A stretch of DNA of 64,000 nucleotides. It comes from Ihuprevotella massiliensis (GTDB lineage: Bacteria > Bacteroidota > Bacteroidia > Bacteroidales > Bacteroidaceae). Below, one piece after another: positions 8,597 through 60,090 of the stretch. The notes beneath the pieces were generated by a model, which searched no databases, was not told the origin of the DNA, and saw only the letters and a program-made list of their open reading frames with translations. Each line of letters begins with the position of its first letter. Position 1 is the stretch's first letter. The translations under genes were made by a program, and so were the position numbers. Location: positions 1,144,673 through 1,208,672 of the forward strand of contig LT608321.1 of the NCBI GenBank assembly GCA_900095835.1. Reading direction: 5' to 3'.

Positions 8597-8600
8597 TTGC

Positions 8601-8668
8601 CCCCCCTAAATATATATGGGAAGAATTGGCGCGAATGGACAAAAAACAGGGTAAAAAGTGAAGATTTT
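8601..8668 (+). repeat. Composite element A, TATATGGG module
   Basis: About 70 bp starting CCCCCCTAAATATATATGGG and continuing through an A-rich segment to AAGTGAAGATTTTCTTC. It aligns along its length with 59404-59475 (same strand) and with the complements of 29530-29602 and 47989-48059. Shared backbone: CCCCTATA, TATATGGGAGG, AAAGTGAGAAAAAATC, then a short dyad and T-run. It begins 5 bp after the terminator of the upstream + strand gene. This is the most diverged copy of the four. Confidence 0.65.
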
Positions 8669-8796: not shown

Positions 8797-9093
8797 CTCG
8801 CGTACGCGCGCGCATCCCTAGCAATTTCGTTTTTTTGCTTTCACAACCTTCACCGATAGCCCCAATTTCGTACGATTTTGGGGCTTTTTCTTGCCCCTCT
8901 CTTTTGTCTCTCTTCGGGCTCTCTTTTTCCACTTTTGGGGTCCTTCAAAGGCATTTCATCGCTCCAGTGTTAAATTTTGTCCGAAAAACCATTCTTATTC
9001 ACTGTGTATCAATTTATTATAGAGATTTCTGTGAAGGTTGTGAAAGCAAAAAGTACAAAACTCTTGTAATGCGCGTGCGCGCGTGCGCGCGAG
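8797..9093. repeat. Composite element A, inverted arm pair
   Basis: Left arm 8797-8853: GC tract CTCGCGTACGCGCGCGC, ~20 variable bases, then core GCTTTCACAACCTTCAC (8837-8853). Right arm 9031-9093 is its inverse: core GTGAAGGTTGTGAAAGC (9031-9047), then an alternating purine-pyrimidine GC tract (9071-9093). The spacer between cores is 177 bp, about one helical turn more than in the other three copies, with a sequence unlike theirs. The spacer holds a perfect-looking hairpin (AGCCCC...GGGGCT, T-run) at 8857-8892. Confidence 0.85.
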
Positions 9094-9208
9094 AAGCACC
9101 TCAACACACATTTTTCACAAACGAAAATATTTCATCTTTCATCTGCCATTTCTTCCCTCTCGAAGCCTTCGACAAAAGGTTCGAGAAAAGGTCCGACAAA
9201 AAAGAAAT

Positions 9209-9311
9209 TATCTCGGACGTTTCTCCAAAAACGTGGGAGATTTTCTAAAAAACGTCGGACGTTTTCCAAAAATTCTCCGACATTATTTCAACGTTCTCCT
9301 ACATTTTCAAG
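9209..9311. repeat. Composite element A, 21-bp tandem array
   Basis: Degenerate 21-bp units aligned at 9209, 9230 and 9251 (type AACGTGGGAGATTTTC), followed by two shorter, more diverged units to ~9311. The same unit occurs in the other three composite elements. One frame reads as a heptapeptide repeat (xNVGxFxK), but no gene-like ORF with a start signal surrounds it. Confidence 0.75.
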
Positions 9312-13675: not shown

Positions 13676-16600
13676 ATGAACACGTTCTTCAGATTCTCAC
13701 GGTTTTGTGTCGGAGTGGCTTTTACTACCCTCGGATTTTCTTCCCCGGCAACGGCACAGAAGCGCGCAATTACTCTCCCTTCGCAGCAACCTCGTTGCTT
13801 TTGTGGGGTGAATGTTTCAACTCCCAACGATGATTCAGCGGAGCAACGCTCCTCTACTTCACATTCCGTCTTTGCCGTGCGTGGGGTGAACAATGCCACC
13901 ACCGCCCCCACGATTAGTGATGGTGTTTTTCGCGAATATCGCTTGGCAGTCTACATGGCCAATGAAGGCTTTCGATCGGAGCAACTCAATCAAGATGTTT
14001 CTAAAGTCAAAGCCTTCTGGAAAGAACTCGAGACTTTTCTCAATAATATCTACGTGCGCGATTTGGGGGTGCGCTTCACCATCGTGCAAGACGAGCGACT
14101 GATTGAGAAGTCTTATAAGGGCTCGTATGCTTATGACGCGGGCACAAAACTCATCAATGCAGCCATCGGATCTGATGCCTACGACATCGGCATTGTAGTG
14201 AATTATATAGAAGGTGGTGCTTTGCAAGGATTAGCCAGTCCTGGTGGAGTGAATTTTCAAGATCGCAAAGGATGGGCGATTGTCAATTCACAAGAAATGA
14301 TTACCATCGGTCACGAACTCGGCCACCTTTTCGGGGCAGACCATCCCTTTGTCGGCGGCGCAGGCTTAGTGGGTCGTTGCACCGAGCCCAAATCAGGACA
14401 ATCCATGATGAGTTATGGATATCCTTACAAAGAAGACTTCATCAGTTTGGAGAGTCTGCGTATGATGCACCCAGTCACCAAGGCTAGTGACTTCAAACTT
14501 CCAGCCGCTGCTAAGCACACCTCTCCCACCAACACGGCGCCGCGCATAGATCGCTCGAAGATGCGCGCGGAATATCGTGTCCCCAAAGGCACCTTTTTCA
14601 CCATTCCCGTCTATGCCACCGATGCCGAACAGTCTTCATTGCTCTATGCTTTCAACCAATTTGGCTGCCATTCCGGAAACCCTGCCACATTCCCCGTTTT
14701 TCCTCCGCAGCACGATGCCAAACTCTCCTTCGGTCGTCGCTATGGTGGAGCAAGTATGATTGCCAATTCTGACGAAATCCCCGTAGGCAACTATCAGTTT
14801 TGGCTCAGTGTGAGCGATGCGCTCCCTGTGGAAGAGGCGATAGCAAAGAAACAAGCACCGCTCTATGATGGCTACATCGCGAAGGTCAAAGTGGTCAACG
14901 CCACTCCTTTCAAGATTACTTCCAACATTGCGTCGCAATATGCCATGGGGCAGAAGCTCACGCTGAAATGGTCGGTGGATAAGACCTTCTTCAAGGGAGG
15001 TAGCAAGGTGCGTGTCGTGATGTCCGATGATTTTGGCGAGACATTCTCTCACGTTCTGGTGCCTAGCACTGCCAACGATGGGGAGTGCGAGGTGTACCTT
15101 CCTCAAAAGTTGATGGAGAAGTTCTCCACCTATTTCAACATCTGGTTTGCGGGTAAGGGTTTGATTCGCCTAGAAACCATCGACGACGATTTCCAGTATT
15201 ATGACCTCAGCAACAATGCGCTAGTGGATGGAGGTATAGAGGTGGTGAAATCTCCAGTTACTTTTGAAGGTCTTCCCACGAACAACTACCTCAAACTTGC
15301 TGCCGATGCTCCACTTCCTCCAGCTCCACAAGTCACAGCGAAGGTGAATAATGCTGCTGTTGAACCCACTTTTTCTGAGACGACAGAAGGCAACATGACC
15401 ATTCGCACGTGGAGGGTGCAACAAGGCGGAGAAGTATATGGCGGACAGCAGTTCATTGAGCGTGAAGTGGCAGAAACTCCTGAAACTCCTGAAACTCCAA
15501 AGGAAGTGAAGGTGCAACAAATCACACTCAATCCTTCTGCCTCTTCGGTTGTTGTGGGAGAATCGTTGCAAATCGCGGCTAAGGTATTGCCCGAGAACGC
15601 AACTAATGCTACGCTGAAGTGGAAAATCACGCCTGAGAATATCTTGAAACCAACTGCTGCACCTGGACAATTCACGGCTCAGCAAGTGGGAGAAGCCCTC
15701 GTTCGTGCGGAAGCAGCGGACGGCAGCGGCATCACAGCAGTGTGCAAAGTGGTGGTGAAACCTCGTTTGGTGCAGACGATTTCGCTCAATGCCACGCAGA
15801 AAGAGCTCATCATTGGCGATGCCTTCTCGCTCACGGCAACTGCAATGCCTGAGAATGCCACCAATCGCAATATAGTTTGGAAACTGGTGAGCGGTGATGC
15901 GATTTCTCTCTCCAACACTGGAGTTATTCAAGCGAAGAAAGTGGGGGAAGCCCTCGTTCGTGCGGAAGCTGTGGATGGTAGCGGAGTGTCAGCAGAGTGC
16001 AAAGTAGTGGTGAAACCTCGTTTGGTGCAGGCGATTTCTCTCAATGCCACGCAGAAAGAGCTCATCATTGGCGATGCCTTCTCGCTCACGGCAACTGCAA
16101 TGCCCGAGAATGCCACCAACCGCAATATAGTTTGGAAACTCGTGAGCGGTGATGCGATTTCTCTCTCCAACACTGGAGTCATCCAAGCGAAGAAAGTGGG
16201 AGAAGCCCTCGTTCGTGCGGAAGCAGCGGACGGCAGCGGCATCACAGCGGAGTGTAAAGTGGTGGTGAAACCTCGTTTGGTACAGGCGATTTCGCTCAAT
16301 GCCACGCAGAAAGTCCTCATCATTGGGGATTCCTTCACGCTCACTGCTACACTCTCTCCCGAGAATGCCACCAACCGCAACGTGATTTGGAAACTCGTGA
16401 GCGGTAATGCGATTTCTCTTTCCAACACTGGAGTCATCCAAGCGAAGAAAGTGGGGGAAGCCCTCGTTCGTGCGGAAGCTGTGGACGGCAGCGGCATCAC
16501 AGCGGAGTGTAAAGTGGTGGTGAAACCTCGTTTGGTACAGGCGATTTCGCTCAATGCCACGCAGAAAGTCCTCGTCGTTGGGGATTCCTTTACGCTCACT

Positions 16601-17284
16601 GCTACTGCAATGCCCGAGAATGCCACCAATCGCAACGTGATTTGGAAACTTGTGAGCGGTGATGCGATTTCTCTCTCCAACACTGGAGTCATTCTAGCGA
16701 AGAAAGTGGGTGAAGCCCTCGTTCGTGCTGAAGCTGTGGACGGCAGCGGCATCACAGCGGAGTGTAAAGTGGTGGTGAAACCTCGTTTGGTTCAAGCGAT
16801 TTCGCTCAAACTCGAGAAAGATACCGTAGCTGTTGGCGAACATTTCACGGTGACCGCTGATGTTTTACCCAAGAATGCGACAAATAGAACTTTGCTATGG
16901 TCGGTTTCTGACCCACTGCTATTGAAACACTTGGAAGCAGGTAGTTTTGAAGCTCTAAAAACAGGTAGTGCTACGATAACGGCGCAAGCACGGGATGGCT
17001 CAAAACAAGAAGCAAGTTGTCGCATCGAAATTGTGCCTCCCACTGCTCTTAAAAAAGCGGTGGCGGCTGATGTCGCACCTCAGGTGAGGGTGGACGGCAA
17101 TACCTTAGTCGTCAAACAAGTGCCCAGTGGACAATGGTTGCGCATACTAGACGTGCAAGGTCGTCTGCTTCATCAAGTGAAAAGTTATGGCGAACCACTA
17201 CGAATAGTCTTCCCTCAGATGCCGCAAGTATTGCTGCTCAAAGTGGCACAACGCAGTTACAAAGTACTTCTCGCTCAACCTTAA
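13676..17284 (+). CDS. Secreted metzincin-type metalloprotease with six BIG2 Ig-like domains and sorting tail
   Basis: 1202 residues with signal peptide (...SSPATAQ). The catalytic zinc motif HELGHLFGADH at 213-223 is the metzincin consensus HExxHxxGxxH, as in reprolysin/M12B-like peptidases; N-terminal domain ~50-285. Residues ~290-600 hold beta-sandwich regions, then an ETPETPETPK linker. Six bacterial Ig-like (BIG2) domains start at 613, 699, 784, 869, 954 and 1039; the middle four are 85 residues each and nearly identical. The last ~70 residues (GQWLRILDVQGRLL...VLLLKVAQRSYKVLL) resemble a type IX secretion C-terminal tail, implying export to the cell surface or medium. Substrate unknown. 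Own promoter and terminator (17311-17360). Confidence 0.9.
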   Translation: MNTFFRFSRFCVGVAFTTLGFSSPATAQKRAITLPSQQPRCFCGVNVSTPNDDSAEQRSSTSHSVFAVRGVNNATTAPTISDGVFREYRLAVYMANEGFRSEQLNQDVSKVKAFWKELETFLNNIYVRDLGVRFTIVQDERLIEKSYKGSYAYDAGTKLINAAIGSDAYDIGIVVNYIEGGALQGLASPGGVNFQDRKGWAIVNSQEMITIGHELGHLFGADHPFVGGAGLVGRCTEPKSGQSMMSYGYPYKEDFISLESLRMMHPVTKASDFKLPAAAKHTSPTNTAPRIDRSKMRAEYRVPKGTFFTIPVYATDAEQSSLLYAFNQFGCHSGNPATFPVFPPQHDAKLSFGRRYGGASMIANSDEIPVGNYQFWLSVSDALPVEEAIAKKQAPLYDGYIAKVKVVNATPFKITSNIASQYAMGQKLTLKWSVDKTFFKGGSKVRVVMSDDFGETFSHVLVPSTANDGECEVYLPQKLMEKFSTYFNIWFAGKGLIRLETIDDDFQYYDLSNNALVDGGIEVVKSPVTFEGLPTNNYLKLAADAPLPPAPQVTAKVNNAAVEPTFSETTEGNMTIRTWRVQQGGEVYGGQQFIEREVAETPETPETPKEVKVQQITLNPSASSVVVGESLQIAAKVLPENATNATLKWKITPENILKPTAAPGQFTAQQVGEALVRAEAADGSGITAVCKVVVKPRLVQTISLNATQKELIIGDAFSLTATAMPENATNRNIVWKLVSGDAISLSNTGVIQAKKVGEALVRAEAVDGSGVSAECKVVVKPRLVQAISLNATQKELIIGDAFSLTATAMPENATNRNIVWKLVSGDAISLSNTGVIQAKKVGEALVRAEAADGSGITAECKVVVKPRLVQAISLNATQKVLIIGDSFTLTATLSPENATNRNVIWKLVSGNAISLSNTGVIQAKKVGEALVRAEAVDGSGITAECKVVVKPRLVQAISLNATQKVLVVGDSFTLTATAMPENATNRNVIWKLVSGDAISLSNTGVILAKKVGEALVRAEAVDGSGITAECKVVVKPRLVQAISLKLEKDTVAVGEHFTVTADVLPKNATNRTLLWSVSDPLLLKHLEAGSFEALKTGSATITAQARDGSKQEASCRIEIVPPTALKKAVAADVAPQVRVDGNTLVVKQVPSGQWLRILDVQGRLLHQVKSYGEPLRIVFPQMPQVLLLKVAQRSYKVLLAQP
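15767..16786 (+). repeat. Four near-identical 255-bp tandem repeats in the protease gene
   Basis: Units begin at 15767, 16022, 16277 and 16532, each exactly 255 bp (85 codons), with only scattered substitutions. The flanking Ig-like units (from 15512 and 16787) are clearly diverged, so the four internal copies arose by recent in-frame duplication or are kept alike by gene conversion. Confidence 0.93.
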
Positions 17285-28576: not shown

Positions 28577-28739
28577 GCTCCCAACGAATACTGCTGCGCT
28601 GAAGACGAATTAATTCTGAAGATGTCAATCATAAAGGGCTTCCTCGCTTCAACACATCGAATTTGAAACCTCAGAAATTCATGATTGCTCTCTCCCCTTC
28701 AGAAGAAGTGTAGCTCAATACGTAGGAGAGGACTAAAAA

Positions 28740-28865
28740 AATGATGGAGATTTTCTCAAAAACGTGGGAGATTTTCTCGAAAACGATGGAGATTTTTCAA
28801 AAAACGTGGGAGTTTTTTTTCTGAACAACGGAGCTTTATTTCTAAGCGACGGACGATTGAGCAAG
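28740..28865. repeat. Composite element B, 21-bp tandem array
   Basis: Six consecutive units of exactly 21 bp starting at 28740, 28761, 28782, 28803, 28824 and 28845 (AATGATGGAG, AACGTGGGAG, AACGATGGAG, AACGTGGGAG, AACAACGGAG, AGCGACGGAC). The clearest array of the four. The heptapeptide frame is open, but there is no start signal or recognised protein. Confidence 0.85.
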
Positions 28866-28976: not shown

Positions 28977-29266
28977 GCGCGGGCGCGCGCACGCGCACCC
29001 TGCAATTTATGCCTTTTTGCTTTCACAACCTTCACAGATTTCCGCGTAACCTTCTTTGTATCAAGTCGTAACAAGCACTTTTCGGACATATTTTAACAAA
29101 ACAACGAGTTCCTCCTTGAAAAGGGACATAGCCTCGAGATTTTCGGCACTGGTTTCCCGTGACTACAGCAACCCGATTTTTCGAGTTTGAAACAGGACAC
29201 GTGTGAAGGTTGTGAAAGCAAAAAAGTGGAAATCGCAGGGAAGGCGCGCATGTACGCGCGCGTGAG
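28977..29266. repeat. Composite element B, inverted arm pair
   Basis: Left arm 28977-29035 (GC tract, then core GCTTTCACAACCTTCAC at 29019-29035) and inverted right arm 29203-29266 (core 29203-29219, then GGCGCGCATGTACGCGCGCG). The spacer between cores is 167 bp and not alignable with those of the other copies. Confidence 0.88.
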
Positions 29267-29529: not shown

Positions 29530-29602
29530 AAGAAAAAAATGCAGTTTTCTGCGATTTTTTATCACTTTGCCCTCATATCCTCCCATATACTTATAGGGAG
29601 CC
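29530..29602 (-). repeat. Composite element B, TATATGGG module
   Basis: Read on the minus strand: GGCTCCCTATAAGTATATGG, then GAGGATATGAGGGCAAAGTG, an A-run, and a small GCAG/CTGC hairpin with TTTTTTT. It starts 113 bp after the stop of the minus-strand methyltransferase gene, in the same direction as that gene. Confidence 0.75.
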
Positions 29603-46910: not shown

Positions 46911-47161
46911 TTTGCAATGTCTTTTCTCTCTGGTAGTGAGAGTGATTACGGAGGTTCACCATTAAACCTTAATCGATCATTAGACCGTTATCGTGCAGTT
47001 CGTCATGGAGAAGATAACATTCTGTCATCTTTCATATCCTTGTTGATCTCTTATTTCTCGTTCGTTCTCGCTGTAGCCCGCTACGCCTTCTAACAAACGA
47101 GAAACAATCTGCTCAACAATCTAAGGAAATTTGTTCAGAATCAAATGAGCGATTTGGATTA
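46911..47161. other. Gene-free stretch before composite element C
   Basis: About 250 bp of AT-rich DNA with no ORF, promoter or hairpin that I can support. Confidence 0.4.
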
Positions 47162-47245
47162 AACAAGGGACTTTTTTGAGAAAACGTGGGAGGAAATCAG
47201 AAAAATCTCCAACGTTTTTCCGAAAACGTGGGAGTTTTTTCAAAG
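47162..47245. repeat. Composite element C, 21-bp tandem array
   Basis: Four exact-period units at 47162, 47183, 47204 and 47225 (AACAAGGGAC, AACGTGGGAG, AATCTCCAAC, AACGTGGGAG); the third is partly inverted in sequence. Confidence 0.8.
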
Positions 47246-47396
47246 CAACTACCGCTCAACCTAGGCAGTAAACAAATTCAGTTTGACATTCCACACCTCA
47301 TTTCTATCGCAACAAATAAGACAAAAAGGGGACATAACTCATTATCTAGCATCTAGAACCAATACTTTCTAATTTCTAATCTCTAACAGTCATGCC

Positions 47397-47690
47397 CTCG
47401 CGCGTGCGCGTTACGCGCGCACTACAGCAATTTCATACTTTTTGCTTTCACAACCTTCACAAAATCACGCATAGAAAATTATTAATCAACAAGATACGAG
47501 GGTATTAGGAACATCGTTCGCAAATATTCCAAGAATAGAGAGAACAAATGGCAAAAAGAGATGAAAAACGACTTTCCGAAATTGGGAGGTTTTCCTTCCT
47601 TTTTTGGGGAAAGATTGTGGAGTCTGGTGAAGGTTGTGAAAGCAAAAAGATAAAAATCTCTGTAAGGCGCGTACGTGACACGCGCGCGCG
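47397..47690. repeat. Composite element C, inverted arm pair
   Basis: Left arm 47397-47460 (CTCGCGCGTGCGCGTTACGC tract, core 47444-47460) and inverted right arm 47627-47690 (core 47627-47643, then GGCGCGTACGTGACACGCGC). Spacer between cores 166 bp, of unrelated sequence. Confidence 0.88.
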
Positions 47691-47988: not shown

Positions 47989-48059
47989 AAAAAATAATTG
48001 CAGATTTTCGCGATTTTTTCTCACTTTGGGGCTTTTGCCTCCCATATATTATAGGGGGA
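47989..48059 (-). repeat. Composite element C, TATATGGG module
   Basis: Minus-strand reading: CCCCCTATAATATATGGGAG, GCAAAAGCCCCAAAGTGAG, AAAAAATCGCG, then GCAATTATTTTTTG. Lies downstream of the sulfatase gene, in its direction, about 255 bp after its stop and beyond its terminator. Confidence 0.75.
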
Positions 48060-59403: not shown

Positions 59404-59475
59404 CGCCCCTATTTTATATGGGAGGATAAGAGGCGAAAGTGAGAAAAAATCAAAGAAAAGTGCACTTTTTTCTTT
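59404..59475 (+). repeat. Composite element D, TATATGGG module
   Basis: CGCCCCTATTTTATATGGGA, GGATAAGAGGCGAAAGTGAG, AAAAAATC, AAAGTGCACTTTTTTC. It begins 1-2 bp after the pfl terminator, same strand as pflA. Confidence 0.78.
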
Positions 59476-59631: not shown

Positions 59632-59920
59632 CTCGCGTACGCGCGCGCATTACCAGCAAACATACACTTTTTGCTTTCACAACCTTCACCGATGGGCGTT
59701 GAGTTTTCATAAAAAAGACTTGCAAACCACACTATTTCGCCCCCAAATACGATACCTATCGTTGCCTCTACCAGACGGACTTTCATGCACTTTTGAAGAA
59801 CGCCGTTCCTAATACTCTCGCATGGCATTGTATTTCAGTAGACTACACCCATTTTTGTGAAGGTTGTGAAAGCAAAAAGTGCAAAAATGTAGGGTGTGCG
59901 CGCACGCGCACGCGCGAGAG
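59632..59920. repeat. Composite element D, inverted arm pair
   Basis: Left arm 59632-59689 (CTCGCGTACGCGCGCGC, core 59673-59689) and inverted right arm 59857-59920 (core 59857-59873, then alternating GTGTGCGCGCACGCGCACGC). Spacer between cores 167 bp, unrelated in sequence to the other spacers. Confidence 0.88.
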
Positions 59921-60000
59921 AGGTGGAAAAGACGAAAATCTGGAGCACGATAAAACACTCCTCTGAAGTGAGATTCATACTTCTCCAAGCATCCAATAAA

Positions 60001-60090
60001 AACATCGGACGTTTTCCAAAAAACGTTGGACTTTTTCCAAAAAACGTGGGAGATAATTTTAAGAACGTGGGAGATAAATTCTTGAATGTG
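60001..60090. repeat. Composite element D, 21-bp tandem array
   Basis: Exact-period units at 60001, 60022, 60043 and 60064 (AACATCGGAC, AACGTTGGAC, AACGTGGGAG, AACGTGGGAG) and a decayed fifth. Follows the right arm by ~80 bp. Confidence 0.85.

Follow-up and report, generated by a model that had tools for sequence, protein, structure and literature searches.

The window, the whole 64,000-nucleotide stretch of contig LT608321.1 analyzed here, contains four elements in which two copies of a 17-bp core face each other in inverted orientation. All eight cores were recovered where a preliminary description had placed them (8837/9031, 29019/29203, 47444/47627 and 59673/59857), and the core-to-core distances of 177, 167, 166 and 167 bp given there follow from these coordinates. 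Scanning the window with up to three mismatches returned 11 core matches against 0.27 expected. The arms surrounding the cores fall into two types, A and B, and each element is accompanied by a 21-bp tandem array (T array) and a block of sequence resembling CCTCCCATATA (C block).

Node 1 (L026; 8797..9093) has its cores at 8837-8853 on the plus strand and 9031-9047 on the minus strand, giving a span of 211 bp, with the B arm on the left, the A arm on the right and alternating GC tracts at ~8797-8814 and ~9071-9093. A P1 motif (TTTCGGACA..TTTAACA type) lies on the minus strand at 8967..8988, +61 from the A core, while the T array (9168..9272) and the C block (8600..8630, minus strand) are located outside the A and B arms, respectively. 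Node 2 (L027; 28975..29260), downstream of the rpoB-rpoC-methyltransferase genes, has cores at 29019-29035 (plus) and 29203-29219 (minus), a span of 201 bp, its A arm on the left with P1 at 29080-29099, a T array outside the A arm at 28737..28853 and a C block outside the B arm at 29550..29595 (plus strand). The cores of node 3 (L028; 47395..47685) occupy 47444-47460 (plus) and 47627-47643 (minus), with a span of 200 bp. Its A arm was taken as the left one from a P2 motif (GGTATTAGGAAC..GTTC type) near 47500-47522, an assignment to be read with the fact that the right side, too, has a match to the loose P1 pattern and that the script typed the arms the opposite way; the T array lies outside the A arm at 47170..47240 and the C block outside the right arm at 48010..48055 (plus strand). 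Node 4 (L029; 59630..59918) combines cores at 59673-59689 (plus) and 59857-59873 (minus), a span of 201 bp, a right-hand A arm with P2 near 59798-59819, a T array outside that arm at 59998..60051 and a C block outside the B arm at 59410..59450 (minus strand). Elsewhere in the window, a 255-bp tandem repeat at 15684-16809 encodes the repeated domains of a large protein, which look Ig-like in translation.

Read from the outside inward, an arm consists of a GC tract in which purines and pyrimidines alternate, 17-20 bp of A-type or B-type sequence, about five T residues and the 17-bp core GCTTTCACAACCTTCAC, itself a direct repeat with a 9-bp period. Many A arms additionally carry an inner block, AGATTTCTTTGTAAC, and, at 61 bp from the core, another motif that occurs in about three variants. 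The alternating tracts are real: in the 45 bp on the outer side of an arm, the longest strict run averages 17.4 (86 arms) against 5.8 after shuffling. The adjoining stretch of about 20 bp, initially regarded as variable, is not random and follows one of two consensus sequences, approximately TACAGCGATTTTGCAC for A and TTCCCTGGGATTTTG for B. Across the same 86 arms, conservation is 93-100% in the core and T-run and 0.36-0.65 at positions 20-30 bp from them. When the 17 bases beyond core and T-run are compared, an arm resembles its own partner less than it resembles arms of other pairs (0.502 vs 0.556; p of 0.9985 for partners being more alike). The pair is thus heterotypic (A/B) and corresponds neither to a hairpin nor to an ordinary inverted terminal repeat. 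The arms resemble separately selected protein sites, in line with the earlier interpretation.

Automatic typing assigned 14 elements as AB, seven as AA and none as BB, with one or no arm typed in 22 elements. The T array lies outside the pair in 26 of the 27 short elements (span of 230 bp or less) and inside it in L035; among the 16 long elements it lies between the arms in 15 and outside them in L018. In all 23 short elements whose A side was typed, the array is on the outside of that side, the exceptions to this rule being L036, L053 and L054, each with two A-like arms. A C block is often found outside the B arm. Short repeats of the TTAGACGTTAGA type stand beside several arrays (L068, L072 and the window near 47395). 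At L070:4230-4330 (G000 C6, ~2.304 Mb), a T array runs in frame within an HsdR-like open frame and reads as repeated KNVGDFP; arrays can thus occupy genes, 21 bp being equal to seven codons. With arms typed by eye at 37 of 43 loci (a typing that conflicts with the script at L028), the genes flanking the A side presented 19 five-prime and 17 three-prime ends and those flanking the B side 16 and 20. A terminator or promoter role with fixed orientation was rejected, since gene orientation is random on both sides. Relative to replication, the A/B orientation showed no clear bias when inspected by eye.

A genome-wide core search extended the four pairs to many more. In the whole of this Alloprevotella genome (G000; main contig 2.76 Mb), the exact core occurs 39 times forward and 39 times in reverse (78 in total; backward control 0 + 0), and with up to two mismatches allowed there are 43 pairs, every one inward-facing, plus one unpaired near-match. 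Pair spans range from 129 to 686 bp. The sister species of the same genus (G156) carries 44 complete pairs, a count that leaves out the sites C14:320679 and C17:653831, for which no partner was found. No open frame of at least 230 aa overlaps any of the 43 G000 elements; frames of 90-201 aa overlap 25 of them and are assumed to be spurious. The exact core was present in two of 301 family genomes, both Alloprevotella, and a 22-mer joining core and T-run had no further record in the genome collection searched, from which records very near the window may be omitted. A phage origin was considered and rejected, the 22-mer having no match in viral contigs. No description of these elements was found among the open-licence papers listed, which is a statement about those papers and not a claim of absence from print.

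A relaxed core pattern matched in seven of 58 Alloprevotella genomes, G000 and G156 included, with forward and reverse counts of 31 + 28 in G114, 9 + 5 in G327, 0 + 1 in G142, 0 + 8 in G064 and 1 + 0 in G332. Allowing one mismatch raised these to 46 + 39 in G114, 33 + 24 in G327 and 36 + 42 in G142 (controls no more than 1), and to 9 + 16 in G064 (control 3 + 1). The same architecture recurs with changed cores in G114 (GCCTTCACTGCCTTCAC), in G142 (GCYTTCACTGCCTYCG, with further internal sites) and at one G327 locus read by eye (GCTTCCACTGCTTCCA); cores therefore vary between species and are uniform within one. Several G114 interiors look alike by eye. The G142 loci L207-L226 contain numerous internal sites whose orientation alternates and whose spacers vary in length, together with outer palindromic CTACCTC-GAGGTAG repeats, possibly the counterpart of T. 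A site downstream of the methyltransferase following rpoC is common to G000, G156, G327 and G114, the methyltransferase lying ~6 kb from rpoC in G114; in G142, arms were not visible in ~1.1 kb. Overall, positions are not clearly kept in the distant relatives: 4 of 20 G114 loci and 5 of 20 G142 loci match G000 arm loci, vs 3 and 3 that match sampled random stretches.

The distribution of spans was found to be clustered rather than evenly spread, with 18 of the 43 G000 pairs at 199-202 bp (p 5e-5); the long pairs (span above 230 bp) number 16 and extend from 246 to 686 bp. Counterpart sites sharing at least one flanking protein were located in G156 for 35 of the 43 G000 sites, only one flank agreeing at L026. 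The comparisons that follow cover 22 short and 11 long orthologous pairs, excluding L018/L179 and L039/L178, for which a complete pair was not found. Where both arms of a short pair were found, 20 of the 22 spans differ by no more than 2 bp, the exceptions being L026 (-21) and the doubtful pair L053 (+227). Flanks beside short pairs (n = 33) changed by a median of 9 bp and a maximum of 1402, exceeding the span changes (Mann-Whitney p 9e-6), although the comparison is not per base, flanks being longer (median 437 bp); seven of the 33 changed by 1 bp or less. Aligned orthologues retain a core identity of 0.88-1.00 in 28 of 30 cases (the exceptions, L053 and L056, are doubtful pairs), and their interiors range from 0.45 to 0.94. 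At seven loci (L022, L027, L029, L030, L031, L038 and L047), ungapped interior identity is 0.28-0.5, near random, and gapped alignment introduces 5-13 gaps with a net length change of only 0-2 bp. The original idea of a constrained spacing around a free sequence thus holds for the short class; it is not supported for the long pairs, whose lengths drift, 9 of 11 long orthologues differing by at least 20 bp.

Interiors were compared all against all for 83 loci, six later-fetched G156 loci standing outside the set, and the best 90 matches were considered. None of the six pairings among the window interiors was among these 90, in agreement with the earlier impression that the window interiors cannot be aligned; two of them, however, have inverted near-copies elsewhere, that of 8837 (L026) with L019 and that of 59673 (L029) with the next node, L030. 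More generally, most interiors do not align, but related groups occur in both genomes: L019/L026, L029/L030 and L044/L045 in G000, and L088-L092 and L083/L084 in G156, further likeness being array or arm-proximal similarity. The interiors of L044 and L045 (C6, 1.631 and 1.652 Mb) are nearly identical, inverted and 21 kb apart. Cassette shuffling was examined as a cause of the equal spans and rejected, the diverged G156 interiors of L078, L086, L099, L108, L114 and L115 lying outside the best 90 matches.

Evidence for the proposed constant helical phase is no more than suggestive. With L026 left out of the off-mode and clustering tests as a copy of L019, the short G000 spans away from the mode are 178, 189, 211, 213 and 221, in steps of ~11 bp. 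A 10.5-bp phase test gave p 0.08 (n = 8) and 0.06 (n = 11) for off-mode G000 spans; for G156 it gave p 0.06 (n = 10), or 0.006 when four mutually related 283-285-bp pairs are among those counted (n = 18); all short pairs pooled reached p <1e-5, but this value is dominated by the 200-bp mode. The phasing idea is weakened by the long pairs, which do not support it, and by a period that varies among species: the best period was 11.6-11.8 for G000 off-mode spans (jitter p 0.0045) and 8.9 for G114 (jitter p 0.0005), where spans also cluster (p 0.002) in a test of 18 of 22 loci, some with related interiors, L166, L189, L197 and L205 having given no pair. For lac loops in vivo, ~11 bp per turn is reported (PMC8501960).

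Six loci (L015, L025, L032, L054, L055 and L056) are counted neither as occupied nor as empty in G156. At two others, DNA search showed the arms to be absent from G156: at L051, the T array is kept and ~0.85 kb is absent, and at L028 (window node 3), ~1.1 kb comprising T, the arms, C and an R200 copy is absent. No clean insertion junctions were seen at these two empty counterparts. The earlier suggestion that the pairs are not a mobile element is left in doubt by the two G000 loci that lack arms in the sister species. The G156 locus L115 is bordered by the left flanks of both L029 and L030, one at either end, so that an inversion between these two elements (C6, 1.204 and 1.216 Mb) occurred in one of the two species. 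The R200 repeat itself is a MITE-like sequence of ~195 bp with inverted ends AATCGGTCATTAGA, found in the window at 46961-47166 and at L051:3616-3806, and offers an in-genome contrast, with many G156 matches at ~72-84% identity over most of its length.

The pairs are not scattered uniformly over the chromosome. GC skew, taken from sampled stretches and noisy, is mostly negative at 0.4-1.68 Mb and mostly positive at 1.7-2.3 Mb and below 0.2 Mb, and window genes identified by their translations as rpoB, rpoC, tuf, fusA and ribosomal genes are transcribed away from 1.7 Mb. From skew changes half a chromosome apart and the direction of these genes, we infer an origin near 1.7 Mb; dnaA, at 1.08 Mb, does not support this position. 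Within a quarter circle of 1.70 Mb lie 35 of the 43 pairs. Searching both strands for T arrays (144 of 147 matches used here and in the node figures below) identified at least 90 loci, 55 of them without arms. Between 0.955 and 2.06 Mb, an interval picked after the positions were seen, 37 arm pairs lie inside and 6 outside, compared with 11 and 44 lone arrays (Fisher p 5e-11), so that arm pairs make up 37 of 48 nodes there, against 6 of 50 in the rest of the chromosome.

Arm pairs and lone arrays together form 98 nodes, among which no gap is below 7 kb against 21.4 expected (the lowest count in 20000 simulations was 9) and 7 gaps are below 10 kb against a mean of 29.1 expected, under a null of uniform placement that ignores where intergenic DNA is available. 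As matches within 1.5 kb were merged, exclusion is demonstrated for 1.5-7 kb. Arm sites avoid one another in all four species examined: gaps below 10 kb number 0 of 36 in the densely occupied stretch of G000 (9.9 expected), 1 of 38 in G156 (10.2), 10 of 50 in G114 (18.5) and, among the matches listed, 1 of 22 in G142 (7.1). These gap tests used hand-entered sites, taken in G114 from 11 contigs with at least three sites, the doubtful match C1:406853 being excluded, and in G142 from seven contigs, C57 and contigs with one or two sites being excluded. Such avoidance could alternatively arise from transposition immunity or from selection against recombination between near repeats.

Taken together, dozens of two-arm intergenic sites in the Alloprevotella group suggest an undescribed mode of bacterial chromosome organization. 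We consider it an evenly balanced proposition that the pairs are two-site platforms bound by a putative DNA-binding protein and serve to organize the chromosome in this clade. One putative protein, or protein complex, would recognize the T-run and 17-bp core in each arm, and the asymmetric flanks would distinguish an A from a B side. Arms of the short class would be joined over a fixed length into a small loop or wrapped complex, for which only the length of the interior would matter. Pairs and neighboring 21-bp arrays would then act as chromosome-organizing nodes at least 7 kb apart, those with two arms being mostly origin-proximal, in a distribution reminiscent of nucleoid-occlusion sites or of others that structure the chromosome. 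The conservation of arms and span, the heterotypy of the pair and the mutual avoidance of sites fit protein-bound organizing sites better than a decayed MITE, and from them we infer the binding protein, the loop and the organizing role. Intergenic repeats are commonly taken for decayed mobile elements, but in the present case arm spacing is conserved where sequence is not. To our knowledge, little is known of such site sets in Bacteroidales, and if the pairs do organize the chromosome, they would provide a directly testable set for this order as well as natural experiments on how a binding protein and its dozens of sites co-evolve.

Other readings of the pairs were weighed against this one. 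We give a lesser but real chance to a MITE-like family with minisatellites of the BrickBuilt kind, whose arms would be terminal inverted repeats, whose interiors would have decayed and whose spacing would reflect target immunity of a transposase. Inverted ends, an intergenic location in tens of copies, the array between the arms of nearly all long pairs, the array within an open frame and the groups of related interiors all agree with such a family. The BrickBuilt elements themselves are a precedent (PMC4596501), and cis-immunity exists in phage Mu (PMC7350765). Gain and loss, seen in the two G156 loci without arms, and the long class keep this reading viable. Against it, R200 aligns to its G156 copies, whereas two-arm interiors mostly do not align; partner ends match less well than the ends of other copies; orthologous sites retain both core and span; the two empty counterparts have no clean insertion boundary; and all paired G000 cores lie within 700 bp, so none encloses a transposase gene. 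A neutral composite of old repeats, homogenized by gene conversion and spaced by counter-selection of recombination between near copies, appears improbable. It would account for cores that are homogeneous within a genome and change in a species-specific manner, and L115 indicates that rearrangement between copies happens; indeed, arm identity could come partly from gene conversion. Nevertheless, gene conversion of arms leaves span conservation around a free interior unexplained. Nor does it account for the way in which arm pairs and lone arrays, having no arms in common, avoid each other over distances reaching 7-9 kb.

Inverted repeats ~170-200 bp apart in Bacteroidales resemble known invertible promoters, which raises the question of an inverton, that is, a promoter flipped by a recombinase between the arms. 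We regard this as very unlikely, because the inverted interior alignment was better in none of 22 orthologous pairs (at L029, L030, L031 and L038, neither orientation was clearly above shuffle, making these loci uninformative), the arms differ systematically and their relation to gene starts is not fixed. Equally far-fetched in our judgment is a structured RNA or DNA hairpin in which the arms pair as a long stem. Cores and T-runs are complementary over ~22 bp in most pairs, but partner arms are less complementary in their variable bases than arms of different pairs are, no covariation was seen between or within arms, and pairing within arms was not clearly above permutation (p 0.07, 86 arms). 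Moreover, no Rfam family was found at the window sites, six tRNAs being the only matches in the window, and the elements have no preferred orientation to genes.

Extending the reading of the pairs as protein-bound organizing sites, we tentatively put forward a clade-specific folding lattice, an idea that we think has a minor chance of being right: ~100 array-marked nodes at least 7 kb apart, of which those near the origin would carry a two-arm site for a loop-closing, length-measuring protein. If true, this lattice would depend on a nucleoid organizer unlike SMC/ParB, MatP or Noc/SlmA, and the cores would change in concert between species as the protein coevolves.

Several known systems bear comparison. 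The BIME/REP elements of enterobacteria are intergenic pairs of inverted conserved motifs with a variable linker and have been proposed as protein platforms. From the Alloprevotella sites they differ in sequence and size, and also in the fixed span with free sequence and the even spacing seen here. BrickBuilt MITEs of Porphyromonas gingivalis (PMC4596501) comprise 19 copies, always intergenic, with a 23-nt tandem repeat between a leader and a tail with inverted ends; leader, bricks and tail are common to the copies, and the ends are like those of IS5-family elements. The likeness to the present elements lies in the Bacteroidales host, the tens of intergenic copies and the tandem repeat of ~21-23 bp with flanking inverted parts; the Alloprevotella elements differ in their mostly unrelated interiors and heterotypic arms and, in the short class, in the fixed span and an array outside the arms. 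The distribution of the pairs, tens of dispersed sites depleted toward the terminus, as the 35 of 43 within a quarter circle of the inferred origin indicate, resembles that of Noc and SlmA sites (PMC4331003, PMC4117426), a resemblance rather than membership. Noc sites are single palindromes, in contrast to paired asymmetric arms with a fixed span and a tandem array. Finally, lac-repressor loops, for which steps near 11 bp in vivo are reported (PMC8501960), share with the Alloprevotella pairs the use of two sites and a preferred spacing; those loops, however, regulate a promoter, whereas the 43 sites described here are unrelated to gene orientation.
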